Assembly: GCA_032358255.1 (NCBI GenBank)
Contig: JAULBX010027495.1
Span: 62,001-126,000 of the forward strand
Direction of reading: 5' to 3'
Source of the DNA: Heterotrichella gracilis
Taxonomy: Eukaryota; Sar; Xanthophyceae; Tribonematales; Xanthonemataceae
Length of the DNA: 64,000 bases
Below, in pieces: positions 9,244 through 60,200 of the stretch; position 1 is the first letter of the stretch, and every line of letters starts with the position of its first letter. The notes below the pieces were generated by a model. The model was given only the letters and a program-made list of their open reading frames with translations, searched no databases and was not told where the DNA came from. A program made the position numbers and the translations under genes.

Positions 9244-11978
9244 ATGAGCTGCCCAGCACCCAGTGACGAGGCAGCAGCGCCAGAGGAGCAGCCAGAGGAG
9301 CAGCTGGAAACCGAGGAGGCAGAACCAGAAACAGCTGCTGCCGTCGAACCAGAGCCTCTGTCTGAACCAGAGGCAGCTGAGGAGCACGTTCAGCAAGTTG
9401 ACTATGACGATGCAGAGGAGGAGGATGAGGAGGGTGCGGAGCCACAGCCTAGCGCAGACGAGCCGCAGCCTGCCCCCGCCCCTGGGGACACAATAGATGA
9501 CACAGTAGGACAGGACGATGCAGGTGATCAAGGGGAGGAGCCAGCTGCAGCGCCATCACCAGCAGGCGATGGCGCTGTACAGGACAAGGAAGGGGCAAGG
9601 GCATTGGAGCCTCTTCAGGTGAACGGGTCACCAGAGCCTGCGGGGAAGGCAAGCCCTGGCAAGGATGGCAGAAGGGCAGCATCTCCTCCGGTACGTGTGA
9701 CCAGCACACTCCCGGGTTGTGACAGCCATGCATGTGCAATGCTCATGACGAGGCACACCAGCACCCAGCACTCGCGGGTAGCCTTTCCTTGCCACCATGG
9801 ATGAGCGCACTGATTGGCACAAGCATACCATTGCGGCAGAATTGAACATTGCCAGGACTTGTAGTGCATTTTGCGATGCCCTGCAGTGGTGGTGCACACC
9901 CTTGAGGCAGGTGCCATGGCGTCCAATGTCAGCGCCTCATAAGGCCAGCGGTCTGCTCAAACCCTACCCACCTGCTCCCTGTGTGTCCCATGACCGCGTC
10001 AATATATCTGCTGACCCATAGTTCCCATTCCTGCTTCCGCATGTCAGCTCCATGTCATGCCAGCGGGTGTACCGACCCAGATTTCCCATGTCCCAGGCTC
10101 GCAGGCGTCGCTCCGAGTCGCGCTCTCCATCTTTGTCACCTAGAAAGCGGAGGCGATCAAGGTCAAAGTAAGTTTTACTTTGACCTTGATTCAGGCCACA
10201 TTGCACAACCTCTGGTGCCTTGCTACCTGCTTACCACTTGGCTCCCGTTGCCCCATGGTTTAGTGGCGGCATGACCCTGTTAGGTGCATCTGATCATTAA
10301 CCATGATCGTGGGAGGATTGTCCAGCAGTGGTTGGAGTGCGTTCATCTGCATTCCATTTGGTGTAGGCCGCATGCACATAATGATAATGTCCCACATTCT
10401 CGCATTCCCTGCTTTGCCGCCCTGCTGACCAGTGGCATGCCGCCATGTGGCGCAGGGACAAGCCTCGCAGCCGCTCACGGGACCGGCGCCGCAGCCGCTC
10501 ACGCGACCGCAAGGAGCGCAGGTCAAGGGATAGGTCGAGGGACAGGAACCGCAGCCGGTCGCCGCGCCGCGCAAGGTGCGCCAGGCAGATCTGCCGTGGG
10601 CTGGTGCCACCAAGGGGTGTATGTGCATGCGCAGAGCAAGTCAGGACACGTGCGTGTCTTACCCTCTGGGGTAGTCATCACAAATTTATTTGGAGCAAAT
10701 ATTCACGCAGAATTCAGCGCTGTCAAATGGGACCTGCAGTGCAGCCGACCTTGTAAACTGTGACTTATTGGTCCACAGCGGTAAAGCACAAGCGGATGGT
10801 TTTGGTGTGGAATGCAGTAGCAGGCCGCAGGTGTCCTCCCCTTGCTCTCACCCCCCCCTTTCTCCTCTGCCTCCAGGCGCTCCCCTGACGAGTACCGCCG
10901 CCGCTCTCCTGCCGCCCCACGCAAGGAGTACATGTTTGTTGCAGGGCTTAACTTTATCACAAATGAGCGGGTGGGTGGTGTGGTGATAGGCCATGTGCCG
11001 GCTTGGCACACCACATACGCACATTCAATCTACATGGGCACATGCACATGCAGGTGTTTGATGGTTTATATGTATGCACATGCACGTGTTTGAAAGTTGT
11101 AGATGTATGTACATGCAGATGCACAGGCACAGGCACCATCAAAGGGGCACATGTGCTCATGCACCACCACAAAGCACAAACGGGTGCACATACATGCATC
11201 AAAGGGACACATGCGCACATGCGGGTGCACATGCATGCCTTCAAAGCGGCACATGCGCACATGCACCATCAATTGTGCAAGGCAGAGGGAGCAGTGCACT
11301 GCATGCAATTTGGGACAGTGACAAACCAGGTCCTTCCAAGCTCATGTCGCCAGAAGCATCTGCCCTAAACCTTTTTAGCAGAAAGATCAACAGCTCTGCT
11401 GCTCTCCCCTGCAGGAGGTGGAACACAAGTTTGAAAAGTACGGGCGCGTGAAGGCGGTGCGCATTGTGCGCAACCCAAACAATGGGGAGTCCAGGGGATT
11501 CGGCTTTGTGGAGATGTATGAAGCGGAGGATGCAGAACGGGTAAGTCGCTGTGAGAGTTAGACATGGTGGACTTTGGAGTGGGAGGAAAAGTGGGGTGGG
11601 AGGGTTTCTGTAGTGTTAGTTGAGGGCTGTTGGAAATGCACAGGCAGCAGAGGTGGTAGAGAATGCTGGACTGGGTTGTTTAGAGCATTAGATGTACTCC
11701 TGTTGTAGGGTGTCAGGGACATTATACATGCATAAGGGGGGATAAGAACTGTGGGTAGGTAGCAGTCTGGGACACATGCACCCCCACCATGCGGTATTAA
11801 TGGGTAGGGCTTGGGATTTGGGTCACATTGCTTTTGTAAAAGGGTCATTTACATCTTCTGGTTTATGTCCTAAACCCTACACCATCCCCTGAACCCTGCG
11901 CAGGCAGTGCGCCACCTCAACGGGCGAGAGTGGAACGGGCGGCGCCTGCTGGTGGAGCCGGCAAAGTCGGGGCGGTGA
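9244..11978 (+). CDS. RS-domain plus RRM splicing-factor-like RNA-binding protein (TRA2-like RRM)
   Basis: Six exons (9244-9690, 10097-10167, 10456-10575, 10877-10970, 11415-11540, 11904-11978) join in phase to 310 residues. Residues 1-149 are acidic, Glu/Pro/Ala-rich and probably disordered. Exons 2 and 3 encode an arginine-serine domain with repeated SRSRDR units, about residues 150-215. The rest is one RRM: RNP2 MFVAGLNF at 232-239 and RNP1 RGFGFVEM at 271-278, ending NGREWNGRRLLVEPAKS. Spacing and wording resemble Transformer-2-type RRMs, so a nuclear splicing role is likely. The 5' splice site of exon 2 sits inside a perfect hairpin, and retaining that intron gives an immediate stop. The order acidic-RS-RRM is unlike canonical SR proteins, where RRMs come first. 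Confidence 0.88.
10156..10190 (+). promoter_or_regulatory. Perfect RNA hairpin sequestering a 5' splice site
   Basis: atcaaggtcaaagtaa (10156-10171) and ttactttgaccttgat (10175-10190) are exact reverse complements of 16 nt around a 3-nt loop. The donor AAA|GTAAGT of exon 2 of the RS/RRM gene (boundary 10167/10168) lies inside the left arm. In the pre-mRNA the donor would be base-paired and hidden from U1. Unspliced read-through meets TAA at 10169-10171. This is consistent with regulated intron retention; regulation itself is inferred. Confidence 0.7.
11020..11280 (+). repeat. Degenerate cacatgc-rich tandem repeat in intron 4 of the RS/RRM gene
   Basis: Units such as caaagcggcacatgcgcaca and caaagggacacatgcgcaca recur with variation, mixed with plain cacatgcaca runs. 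The repeat lies wholly inside the 10971-11414 intron and has no coding appearance. Confidence 0.6.
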
Positions 11979-21039: not shown

Positions 21040-21240
21040 ATTTTTTTCATTCAATAAATGTATTAAAGGCATTATCAATTGATTATATATTGCATAAACC
21101 ATATTGATAATGATTCGTTATGTAATTTCTGCTGATAAATTGGTTAATCAAGGGTAATAAGATAATAACAGGACTACTATTATCTTATTACCCTTGATTT
21201 AATCAATCGATACAAATTTAATGCAAATAACCGCTCTCCT
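21040..21240. other. AT-rich island between module copies 2 and 3
   Basis: This stretch is far richer in A and T than its surroundings and contains the palindromic element at 21146-21199. It has no open frame of note. It may be an inserted element larger than the palindrome, but no terminal repeats were resolved. Confidence 0.4.
21146..21199 (+). mobile_element. Short palindromic hairpin element, copy 1 (MITE-like)
   Basis: The arms 21146-21167 and 21178-21199 are 22-nt reverse complements with core aagggtaataagataata, around a 10-nt loop acaggactac. A second copy at 58674-58721 has the same arms and the reverse-complement loop with one change, so it lies in opposite orientation. This dispersal implies mobility or gene conversion. 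No transposase is present, and no target-site duplication was identified. Confidence 0.6.
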
Positions 21241-48149: not shown

Positions 48150-51100
48150 ATGACGGAAGAACCCACCCCCGGTAACCCGCCCCGCCACCGGTTTGGCTTT
48201 CACCATACCGGGCACCGCCGCCTGCTGTGCTTCCACCCTACCGTAGCAAGCGTCGAGGACCAGCACGGGCTGCGGTACAAGTGGAAGGCACGCAACCACA
48301 GGCACGCCATCCCCCATCACCCTACACCCCCCACACACCATCCACCACGCTGCACCGTCGCCCTGCGCCTCAAATGACCCTACCGCACCCCTTTCAGCCC
48401 AATAAATGCCAGAACAGCGTGACACCACCGTTGTCTGTGCTTCACCACCCCTACACACACTGGGGGCACCTTGTACATGGCAATCCTATGCAAGCATGCA
48501 TCCTGTCCCATGAGCTTGAACCCATTCTGTTTAATACTGCTAGCGTGCTTTTGCCTGTGACGCTCTGCCCTGCGTCACTCAAACGCATGCCTGCTGTCTG
48601 CGATCGCAGACCCTGCCAAACCCCGCGCAAACACCCTAAAACCCTAAACCCTAAAAATAGCACGCTATGGCACAGTGCATACCTCGTGCAAGCACCCTGA
48701 ACCCCAGAACGTTCGTGCATGCCTGCGCATCGCACACTTGACACCAGCACTGACCTCGCTTTCTTGTGCACCCTTTGCAGAAGGGCAGGTACCCGGAGCT
48801 TCAGGAGCCACACGCCCTCCAAAGGTGAGGACCCGCATGGGCAGCCCACACAACCTTGACAAGGACAAGGGTATGGACATTGCCATGGACATGGACATGG
48901 GCATGGGCATGGACAGGGGTGGTAATATATAAACCATTCCTTATTTATATATTAACACCCCTGGCGTTGGTGTGGGTGTGGGGTTAGGCATGGGCATGGG
49001 CGCTGCGGTTTTCCACCCTCGTGTTTGGCCTATGTGCTTGCTTGCCCTCCACTTGGCTCCCTCAACCACACCTTGAACGGGCATCCTAGCGGGTCACATC
49101 AGTCATTGGCTATTCCAAGCGCGTGAGCTGCACATGCCTGGGATGTTGCCCCATACTCCACCAGTCACCCGTGTCATTTAACCCTGTCTCCACCACCAGC
49201 GCCTGCTGTCCACCCCCTCCCACGAGGCTCCGAGCCACCATTTCCATAAAATTCTGAAATAAATAAGATATATTATGAGATTCTAAAAGGAAAAATACCC
49301 TATAATCACTACAATAGTTTGAGGCCGTGCGCCCCCTGGCTCCAGTCACCACCCCCTGCTGCTGCTGCCAGTTGGCTTTGGCTACCCCTACACCAACATA
49401 TCCTACTGGGTGGCGCTGGTGTTCACCCTAGGGTGTGTGGCCTGGGTGGTGAACGGCACCTATGCATTCTTCCCTGGTCTGGCAACCAGCGAGCAGCAGC
49501 TGGGGACGGGATTGGCTATTCGGCGCTGGTGGGAGGTGCGTGCGGGCAGGGTGTAGGGTGTAGGATTTAGGGCGCAGGCCTAGCGCAGTTGTGATGCCCC
49601 TGCACAGAGTGCATGTAACTGCCCTTGTGACCCCACTGGAACTGACGTTTACCGTTACCTCGCCGTGCTGGCACAACTTGCTTTTGTTTGCACAAGAAAG
49701 TGCACTTCATGTGATTATAAACCCTAAACCCTAATCCCTAAGCCCATTTGCCTTAAGGCTGTCCCAGGGTCCCTCTTTGAGATCGGCTCCTTCTTGCTCT
49801 ACTGGGAGGCGCTCAACCCCGAGCCCATGGTACACACAGGGCTGGAGCAACCAAAGCAACGTCCAAATCCACAACACCCCGCCACCACCCCTGCCACCGC
49901 AAAGGGCGCAGCCTCTGCATCGAGAAACGACGCAGAAACAGGGGGCAAAGACGGGCCCGTTTTGATGCCGGGGCCAAATGCGCGGCCTCGCTGCCTGCAA
50001 CGCAGCCCCAGCTTCCAAAAACACGATGTTGTGGCCTTCATTGGCAGCTTTGAAGAGCCCACAACTGATGACGCTGGCGCCAAGGGGAGCGAGGGGGCAG
50101 GAGGTGTTCCTCCCCTGGAGGTGGTGAAACAGGCGGGGCTTGACGGGGAGGGCGCGGAGTGGCGCTGGTGGGGGGCGCGGTGGCGTGAGATGGGGTTTGT
50201 GGCCAGCGTGCTGCAGCTGATTGGGGCCACCGTGTTTCTGGTACGAAAACCCTAAAGATCCTAAAAACCCTAAGCACTTAGACTTGTGTGCTGGGGCTGG
50301 TTGGGGGGACAATGTTTCTGGAGGAAAGCTGCGTCTGCTTGCATGCATTTTGCTGTACCGCATGTCTCGGGCTTGCGCTCTGCATCACCCGAGCAGGATG
50401 ACTGAGCGCATGCACTCCATGCATTCTTGATCAAGTTGAGGGCAGCCTTGATGCAGCAGTCGCTCAACTGCTCTGCAATGACCCTAAACCCTGAACCCTA
50501 TGTCGTAGGTCTCGTGCGTCTTTGGCACCCCAGGTGTCTACGCTGCGGAGGATGAGTCCAACTACCGCGCATGGGACGGGGTCTACTGGGGACTACAGGT
50601 GGGTGGTGTGGTGCTCCTCCAGTGAAGCTGATGTACTAGGTATCAGTAGCCATGTGCGAGGAGGAGAGATTCTGAGGGATCCAAAGAGTCAACCATCTTT
50701 GCAAATTGGTCCTGTGGAGGATTTTGTGTGTTCGGAATATGGGGATCTTGGTTTGATGCACCTAGCGCTTGTGAAGTTGATGCTGCCGTGGCATGGAGGG
50801 TGGGCCTACTAAAAAACAAAAAGGACAGCACAGCATCTCCATCATTATTGCCCCAGGTCACCTTTCAGTGACATGAACAATTGGTTTGGGAGATCAGCTT
50901 AGCAATGCGGTCCAAACAGCGGCATTCTTGGAATACCCCTTTACTTCCTCACACCACACCCAGCGTGGCATGGCCAATCAATCGCAGCTGGCCGAGAATG
51001 CCATCACTGGTCCCAGGTTTCTGCCTTTTCCAAGTTGCTGGCTCGTGCTTCTTCATCGCCTCCTCCTACCTGTTCATGACCGAGGTGCAGCCCAACTGGT

Positions 51101-57296: not shown

Positions 57297-60200
57297 CTAG
57301 TCTACTGCCTCCCACTTCACATCCTCACCCCCCTCCATACCCTCCTCCCCCACCCCACCCTCCTCTTCCTCCGCATAGCTCACTTCCTTGCCCCGCCCCC
57401 TCCGAGGTCGAGCAGGCGCCACACCCCTTGGCTCCTCCCCTGCTACTTGCACATCTGACGCCCCTTCTCCACTGCTTTTCTTTCGCTTTGCCCCCACTGC
57501 AGGGGCTGCCTTGCGCTGCCGGGGAGGCTTGGTGGCCCCTGCAGGCGCTTTGGAGCGAGGTGCCCTCCCCTTGGCTTTTTGCCCACTACCTCCCTGACTT
57601 GGCGCTGCGGCAGCCTGAGCGGGGCTTGGGGTTTGGGTAGGGTTCCCAGCCGCTGCAGACGGGGATGCAGAGTTGTCATCCCCTGGTTGCGCATCCACTG
57701 CGTTGCACACCACGTGGATCAGCACATGGCGCCATGTGTCATCTTGAGGGTAGCAGCAAATGGCATGAGATTTTAAGCCAAAACATTGCATATATTAAAT
57801 GAGATTATGACAATGCCATTCTGCAAATGGGCATGCACATGTAGTGGCCACGATGATCGAGCCATTCCCATTGCAACTCATCTCAGAAATCTCCAGCTTT
57901 TGCAGGAGTGGTGGGCAATGATTTCTCACAACCCACATGATAATGGCCCTTCTAGACAAACCTAAATTGCTCAGTGTCAGCATCAAAATGGACAAAGTTT
58001 TGATGGCAGGGTTGCTGGCCTGTCCCTTGCTTACCTTGTTCAGCTGCTGGCTGCTGCGCCTTGCGCTTGCGCTGCTTCTTGGCGGGAGCCTTGCTGGTGT
58101 CCGCATAGTTGATGGCAGGGTTGCTGGATCCGGTGATACCTGCAACAGTGGGAAGAGTCGCAGTTACATACGAGGCCAAGCAAAGCTTTGGGGTTTAGGG
58201 TTTAAAAATTGGAGGTATATGCAATGCCAGGCGGGGTGCGCGCACTTCTGTGCTCACGTCAGCTGCCAACCTTTCTGGAACCTGTGCCAGCATGGTCATT
58301 ATTTATGGTTTGAATGTCAAGGTGCTAACCCTGTACCCTCCATGCTACTCGCCGTTGAGCACCAACCTGCCACAGCTTTTGGACTCATGTGGCGTCGCCA
58401 AGCCCACAAGGAAACCGCATGCAAAGCAAAGGAGGACGGATGCATACATATATTCCCCTGGGGACCAACCCTAGGCACCCACCTGCTACAGCTTTCTGCA
58501 GGCGCGTGGACCTGATCTTGGCAAACCGCTGGCTGAAGTGCAGGAATGAGTCCATGGTGAGCTGGGTCTGGCGCTGGTCAAAGGACTTGAGCACAGGCTG
58601 GAGGAGCTCGTCGGACTTGGCCTGCAGGTAGATTTGGGGATTATAATTTAGGGTCTGAGGTGGCCTGCAAAAGCAAGGGTAATAAGATAATAGTAGTCCT
58701 ATTATTATCTTATCACCCTTGGCAAAAGATACAAGACAGTGTCGTAGTCTGTCAGATGTCAAATGCAGGTCGCACAAGATCGAAAGTGGTACAGGGCTAA
58801 AGCCGAACGCTTGGCGTCGCATCTGCACATGCATTTTAGATACACAGGCTATCAAAGGAATAGCCCAGGATGCCTTGCGCCAACCCGCATGTGCAAGGCA
58901 GATCGCTGCATTGGAATTCATGCAACAAAGTAACCAAAATCAGATCACTTAATTGCATAGACGAAGAAGATTTGGTTCGCCAAGCATATCACAAGACGAC
59001 CCAGCAGTCAACTAGTAGTGTCACCTGGTCCCATCCCAGCCTGTCCTGGCAAAACTGGCGCAGCAGCTCCAAGTCAGGCCTGCCATAGGTGAACTTGTCC
59101 TTGCAGGGGTCCACCCGGGGGGTGAGGTAGGCCTCAGACACAGCCGCGCTGGGGAAGGCGTCGGGCACATACCAGTTCTTCTTCACGCCCTGGTGCTTGT
59201 GCTTGAACTGCTTCAGACTCAAGGGCTCCTCCTCGCTTGCCTGCACAGAGGTATGAGGGGAGGAGGGGAGACCCAAAACCAGCTGGAGCAAGCTTCATGT
59301 TGGGAGTTGACATTTAGAAATCCCATGTTTGAGAAAGAAAAGGAATTTTATGATTTTTGCGTAGAAGGCAGCTGTAGCAAAAATGCATGCAATCAAGTGA
59401 CTAACAAGATACCAGGCACACACAATCGGTGTGGATGGCACCATTTGGCACACTAGCAAGTGCCTGGCTGACATAACCCACAGTCTAGCTTTCAGGATGC
59501 ATACACTCTCCAAGCTGGCAATGGAGCATGGACCAACCTGTGCGAGGGCACCAGGCTGGCCAGACGCCTGCTCCTCCTGGCTTGCCTGTGACTCCCCTGC
59601 CTGCCCAGCCTGCGAGCTGCCACCCTGGCCCTTCTTACTGGCCTCCTTGCCCCCCATGCTCTGCGCAGCCTGCAGCAGCTCCGCATCTGGCCTCATGATC
59701 CAGTCCTTGAACTGCTGCAGCCCATCCTTGCCTGGGAAGGCGTTCACGATCTCCACCGCGTTGACAATGCCTATGCCCGCCACCCCCTCTGTGTAGTCGC
59801 TGCCCAGCAGGTGCGCCATGTTGATGAGCTTGGTCTGGTCCATGCCCAGCTCGGTCTGGATGTCGGACACGCGGTACTCCTCCACGTACTTCTTGTTGTC
59901 AAAGATGTTCCTGTACAGCAATGTATGTTGATTATGGTTTCATCCAGCTAAAACCATGGGTGCAGAGAGACGAGGCTCATGGGCCATGCTTATTCAGGTG
60001 ATATTGCCTGACAGGGCAAGCACACCATGTGACCAAAAGGCACGCGGTGCGATCTTGCTTGCAATCGATAGTTGAAATGCTTGTTAGTTACATGTGCAAC
60101 TTTGTTGGCATTCAATGATCACACACACAACTGGCTTGTGGAGAGCTTATTGCCAAGGAGGCTTGGAATGCTTGCCAGCAGATCAGCTCACCTGTACACC

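Follow-up and report, generated by a model that had tools for sequence, protein, structure and literature searches.

The 5' splice site of intron 2 in a nuclear RS/RRM gene lies within a perfect hairpin at positions 10156-10190 of the window (the whole 64-kb stretch of DNA analysed here), and the arm of this hairpin that falls in the intron is exactly complementary to the exon end and donor beside it. We infer for this structure a mutational origin, a direction of copying and an effect on splicing, and we give about even credence to a hairpin that was made by a template switch and that moderately dampens the splicing of intron 2, as opposed to a tuned switch. The hairpin probably came to cover the donor by accident; its reading as a regulated switch is speculation, and the thermal version of that reading is disfavoured.

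Structure of the hairpin

The hairpin consists of two fully (100%) complementary 16-nt arms separated by 3 nt (GTT). On the plus strand, the left arm (10156-10171) comprises the last 12 nt of exon 2, which are coding, and intron bases +1 to +4 (GTAA); the loop (10172-10174) holds intron bases +5 to +7, and the right arm (10175-10190) is entirely intronic and is the exact reverse complement of the left arm. This confirms the initial annotation, in which the donor of exon 2 was enclosed by two exact 16-nt arms on either side of a 3-nt loop. The donor (AA|GTAAGT, with intron base +1 at 10168) lies within the left arm, and seven of its nine bases from -3 to +6 are paired in the stem, with +5 and +6 in the loop, which places the 5' splice site in a local stem of high predicted stability. 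Folded alone, the 35 nt are predicted to reach -20.5 kcal/mol (z -7.35, with 0 of 200 shuffles equal or better), and within a 164-nt context the predicted fold has a z of -3.21, with 2 of 200 shuffles equally good; these and all opening energies given below are for naked RNA. As a sequence, the hairpin is far beyond chance. A second near-perfect short hairpin lies in exon 1 of the same gene, at 9548-9577, with 13-nt arms that are 92% complementary and 4 nt between them.

The host gene and the consequences of failed splicing

A six-exon gene model on the plus strand closes in frame and yields a 310-aa protein with an acidic N-terminus, then an RS region, and then a C-terminal RRM (233-301). Exon 1 (9244-9690) encodes the acidic N-terminal region from the ATG, exon 2 (10097-10167, 71 nt) the start of the RS region, exon 3 (10456-10575) RS repeats, exon 4 (10877-10970) the end of the RS region and the start of the RRM, exon 5 (11415-11540) the RRM core, and the coding part of exon 6 (11904-11978) the end of the RRM and the stop codon TGA. 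The protein matches Pfam RRM_1 with an E-value of 7.5e-19, and this match together with the gene model supports the RS/RRM make-up that had been claimed for the gene. Its PDB matches include many RRM proteins, the best being poly(A)-binding protein, with transformer-2-beta and SRSF2 matching more weakly. These domains suggest that the protein is a splicing factor, of a layout other than that of classical SR proteins: the RS region precedes the single C-terminal RRM, the opposite of the classical order, in which an N-terminal RRM is followed by the RS region. Seventeen RRM matches were found in the genome, two of which are this same gene, and the other 15 show 28-44% identity over the matched parts; an RRM scan of viral contigs for relatives found none.

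Failure to use the intron-2 donor would truncate the predicted product. Retention of intron 2 (10168-10455), whose donor GTAAGT sits inside the hairpin, gives AAG TAA, with the stop at 10170-10172, and a 173-aa product without the RRM; the last 24 residues of this product are RS-like, so the claim that retention removes most of the RS region and the whole RRM holds. The same annotation placed the stop at the first intronic codon, which is near enough: the TAA comes just after the codon that spans the junction (AA|G). Skipping of exon 2 shifts the frame and gives a 174-aa product, and both alternative forms would carry the premature stop by which unproductive splicing is recognised. An alternative in-frame donor at 10162 (AAG|GTCAAA), with a U1 pairing energy of -5.2 kcal/mol, would lose two residues and lies deeper in the hairpin stem.

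At the end of intron 2, an in-frame ATG at 10445 (context GCCGCCATGT, 10445-10455) would start a 141-aa protein with both RS region and RRM. Restart of translation there on the retained RNA is unlikely, seven earlier ATGs (10255 to 10437) lying within 10173-10455, and it is possible that an internal promoter within intron 2 uses this ATG for the 141-aa product.

Tight palindromes in the genome

The genome searched comprises 68.5 Mb in 903 contigs. Background frequencies come from a 264-kb sample, made up of the 64-kb window and twenty 10-kb stretches from four other contigs, and were compared with four second-order Markov runs; low-complexity and TGCATGCA-bearing rows were removed before palindromes were counted, which reduced 186 rows to 161. 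Perfect hairpins with arms of 11 or more and loops of 0-3 occur 12 times in this sample, where the simulated mean is 0.25, and those with arms of 13 or more and the same loops occur 6 times, roughly one per 44 kb, against 0 in simulated sequence, where the four runs contained no arm of 13 or more even with loops of up to 13. The 16-nt arm of the donor hairpin is the joint third longest among the perfect hairpins of the sample (loops up to 20, low-complexity excluded), the two longer arms belonging to a MITE copy (window 21146) and to an AT-rich near-palindrome (L026:5780). One of the 12 tight hairpins, at L026:5793, belongs to a larger, repeat-like palindrome.

The donor hairpin and four of the other five palindromes with arms of 13 or more, the remaining one being L035:9278, were searched with their flanks, and each was found at one genomic place by a search that skips very common words. 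Because all five searched members are at a single place, the class looks like the product of local mutation rather than one mobile family. Imperfect tight palindromes (arm 14, loop 0-5) with 0, 1 and 2 mismatches number 3, 6 and 22, against 0, 1 and 6 in simulated sequence and 0, 4 and 13 in a control with loops of 40-45. The excess over simulated sequence is what decay of perfect palindromes would give; the excess over the control is modest, and some of the listed palindromes are MITE copies.

Position on the donor

How surprising is it that such a palindrome covers a splice donor? From a guessed density of one donor per kb, 6 palindromes per 264 kb and about 21 donor-covering placements, we obtain a rough estimate of some 30 donors covered by chance genome-wide, or about 0.03 per 64-kb window. 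The position of the hairpin is therefore a mild surprise, in a case picked after it had been seen, and we do not take it as evidence of selection.

A genome-wide search with three core patterns that place the donor near the apex of a hairpin, other registers of donor and stem lying outside these patterns, found 20 places (4, 7 and 9, including one spot that was entered once for each strand), where a calculation by hand from word counts predicts about 14.6 (1.1 + 3.4 + 10.1). Donor-at-apex hairpins are neither clearly depleted nor clearly enriched. Among these places, only the hairpin at 10156-10190 has an arm of 16, the others ranging from 6 to 9. Two donor-like hairpins have higher opening costs, L057 (13.8) and L063 on its minus strand (12.0, with 8.7 on the plus strand). 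The pattern that yielded L063 occurs at 1 place and its reversed control, whose words are about three times commoner, at 14; we draw no conclusion from this difference. Another pattern, which includes 10156-10190, occurs at 3 places against 5 for its control, with 10156-10190 as the sole long hairpin there.

Predicted accessibility of the donor

Opening the intron-2 donor from -3 to +6 is predicted to cost about 10.5 kcal/mol (10.4-10.5 in every context, from +20 to +150 nt), and since 20 nt of transcribed intron are enough to reach this cost, the stem is local. When the right arm was shuffled 200 times, the median opening cost was 2.7 and the maximum 7.3 kcal/mol. Pairing with U1 at this donor is computed to gain 5.6 kcal/mol, with a U1 5' end that we take to apply here and that does not come from the sequence of this genome. 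Because the opening cost exceeds the gain from U1, some intron-2 retention is plausible, and on these modelled energies reduced splicing of the intron is plausible as well. The earlier proposal that a hidden donor favours retention is to this extent consistent with the predictions. Against it, 5 of the 190 GTRAGT sites in the 264-kb sample, all of them candidate donors, have a higher opening cost. Two of these five are the two strands of L033:5307-5338.

Within the gene, the intron-2 donor compares least favourably of all five donors when opening cost is set against U1 pairing, both in the -60..+66 context and in the context of 150 nt on either side. In the latter context, the intron-4 donor has an opening cost of 13.5 (U1 -11.8) and the intron-1 donor one of 10.0. 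High predicted opening cost alone does not mean poor splicing, as introns 1 and 4 and the 5 of 190 sites illustrate. The locus at L033:5307-5338 is itself a perfect 12-bp hairpin with an 8-nt loop and with GTAAGT, as candidate donors, on both strands, and none of the 190 costs more to open than its plus-strand site.

In Nicotiana plumbaginifolia, work by Liu et al. in 1995 reportedly dealt with hairpins placed on 5' splice sites. In HIV-1, stabilisation of the donor hairpin (quoted at -7.1 kcal/mol for the wild type) is reported to lower splicing (PMC4974535). In that hairpin as in the present one, the 5' splice site is part of a local stem in competition with U1; the present one differs in that it is perfect, is predicted to be far more stable, belongs to a nuclear gene and is known from sequence alone.

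Origin of the hairpin and its likely effect

We favour an origin by snap-back copying, a single short template switch of the replicating DNA, which would have written the end of exon 2 and the donor in inverted form into the start of intron 2; such a switch explains the perfect inverted copy in one event. The left arm has its own reason to exist because it is in-frame RS coding sequence, giving (R)SRSK inside the RS region beside more RS repeats, and the right arm is intronic, with no evident role except pairing. Since the left arm is RS coding sequence, the right arm is probably the derived copy. The copy adjoins its source and belongs to no dispersed repeat, as is typical of a template switch. 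Template switches that produce perfect RNA hairpins have been described (PMC8794818), and in great apes 4017 significant short template-switch events, enriched in introns, are reported (PMC7954356). With the hairpins of PMC8794818, ours shares a perfect short inverted copy beside its source and at one genomic place; it differs in that we infer the event from a single genome rather than reconstruct it from an ancestral sequence. Among the matches listed from the open-licence literature, as titles and abstract openings, none describes a splice donor covered by a template-switch hairpin. In the pre-mRNA, the stem could form once about 20 nt of the intron had been made and would reduce the access of U1 to the donor. 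The likely outcome would be a constant, moderate dampening of intron-2 splicing, in which unspliced RNA stops at once at the TAA, with no tuned switch.

Two other origins must be weighed against the template switch. A palindromic transposable element inserted at the exon end could have supplied both arms: the window holds palindromic 48-bp MITEs with the ends CAAGGG/CCCTTG, and the hairpin carries CAAGG/CCTTG two bases in from its own ends. It is very improbable that the hairpin is a remnant of this kind, however, in view of its single genomic place, its lack of internal similarity to the MITE, a left arm that is in-frame RS coding sequence, and the absence of a target-site duplication beside CAAGG/CCTTG, where 2 of 7 positions are alike by eye. 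Identity with the 48-bp CAAGGG MITE itself was rejected on the grounds of shared interior, many copies and 7-bp target duplication, none of which the hairpin has, and no Rfam family reaches its gathering score within the window. Inverted copies adjoining their source are also a known type of assembly or amplification artefact, arising from a fold-back read, but the intron into which the sequence continues here ends in a normal acceptor and all six exons join in one open frame, and an artefact strikes us as just as improbable as a transposable element.

With regard to effect, the alternatives to constant dampening range from none at all to regulation. It is possible, if somewhat doubtful, that the hairpin is a neutral passenger and that helicases, RNA-binding proteins and fast U1 binding keep intron-2 splicing at an essentially normal level. 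Enough splicing must take place for the gene to persist, because either retention or skipping after donor failure truncates the product, and the 5 of 190 GTRAGT sites and the two donor-like hairpins (L057 and the minus strand of L063) that cost more to open also speak for neutrality; a local stem that is predicted to form with 20 nt of intron made, the reported reduction of splicing by the HIV-1 donor hairpin (PMC4974535) and the position of intron 2 as the worst of five donors in both contexts speak against it. We consider unlikely a selected autoregulatory switch, in which the RS/RRM protein or a recruited helicase would open or stabilise the hairpin on its own donor and the protein level would be set via the unproductive retained form. 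Such a switch fits an RS/RRM gene with an immediate stop on retention, with three introns downstream of the retained one that make decay of the retained RNA plausible, and with the sole long-arm place within the three donor-at-apex patterns. Unproductive splicing is described for SR genes of Chlamydomonas, one of them an ASF/SF2-family gene that retains its last intron, and the likeness to the present gene is that retention or skipping in an RS/RRM gene leads to a premature stop (PMC7534427); those forms were seen in RNA, whereas here both the hairpin and the potential for such forms are read from DNA. Moreover, the stem is predicted to be far more stable than the HIV-1 donor hairpin as quoted (PMC4974535), which makes an easy switch less likely, and similar tight palindromes occur elsewhere in the genome. 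Because tight palindromes recur, four others are also at a single place and 5 of 190 GTRAGT sites cost more to open, no special design need be supposed. The fuller scenario, in which the donor of an RS/RRM splicing-factor gene acquired the hairpin through a one-step replication error and selection then kept the structure as a self-regulating switch that opens on demand for the protein or its partners, seems to us quite unlikely. Most improbable of all is an RNA thermometer, in which heat would melt the donor hairpin and so control retention. The donor does carry a hairpin, and work on tomato HsfA2 has examined pre-mRNA structure in connection with temperature-dependent splicing (PMC8824230), but none of the temperatures tried, which ran from 5 C to beyond 60 C, opens the predicted stem. 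It is thus predicted to persist past the physiological range, with an opening cost that falls only from 13.4 at 15 C to 9.8 kcal/mol at 42 C. The HsfA2 5' splice-site RNAs are, moreover, reported without a switch-like change, with some melting of the first site only. The temperature-sensitive donor hairpin suggested at the outset is thus unsupported.

If the hairpin has been kept by selection, it would show how one template-switch mutation can create splicing control in a single step; if it is neutral, it gives a measure of the donor-hairpin strength with which a natural spliceosome can cope.

Other palindromic repeats

The window contains two copies (21149-21196 and 58674-58721) of a 48-49-bp, almost wholly palindromic MITE with the ends CAAGGG/CCCTTG, an unusually short transposable element. 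A genome search gave at least 80 matches to it, on both strands, with the best 40 of 105 candidates scored. The ends were exact in 17 of the 18 loci examined, and among these 17 a 7-bp target duplication, judged by eye, was exact in 8, had one mismatch in 7 and had two mismatches in 2. A second possible type of palindromic repeat is represented by L026:5780-5841 and by about 48916-48962 of the window, which share TAATATATAAACCA and its complement near GGGTG/CACCC ends. A possible third type, with AGGACTT...AGTCCT-like ends, occurs at L030:5132-5185, at L040:8663-8723 and perhaps at L035:3350-3382.
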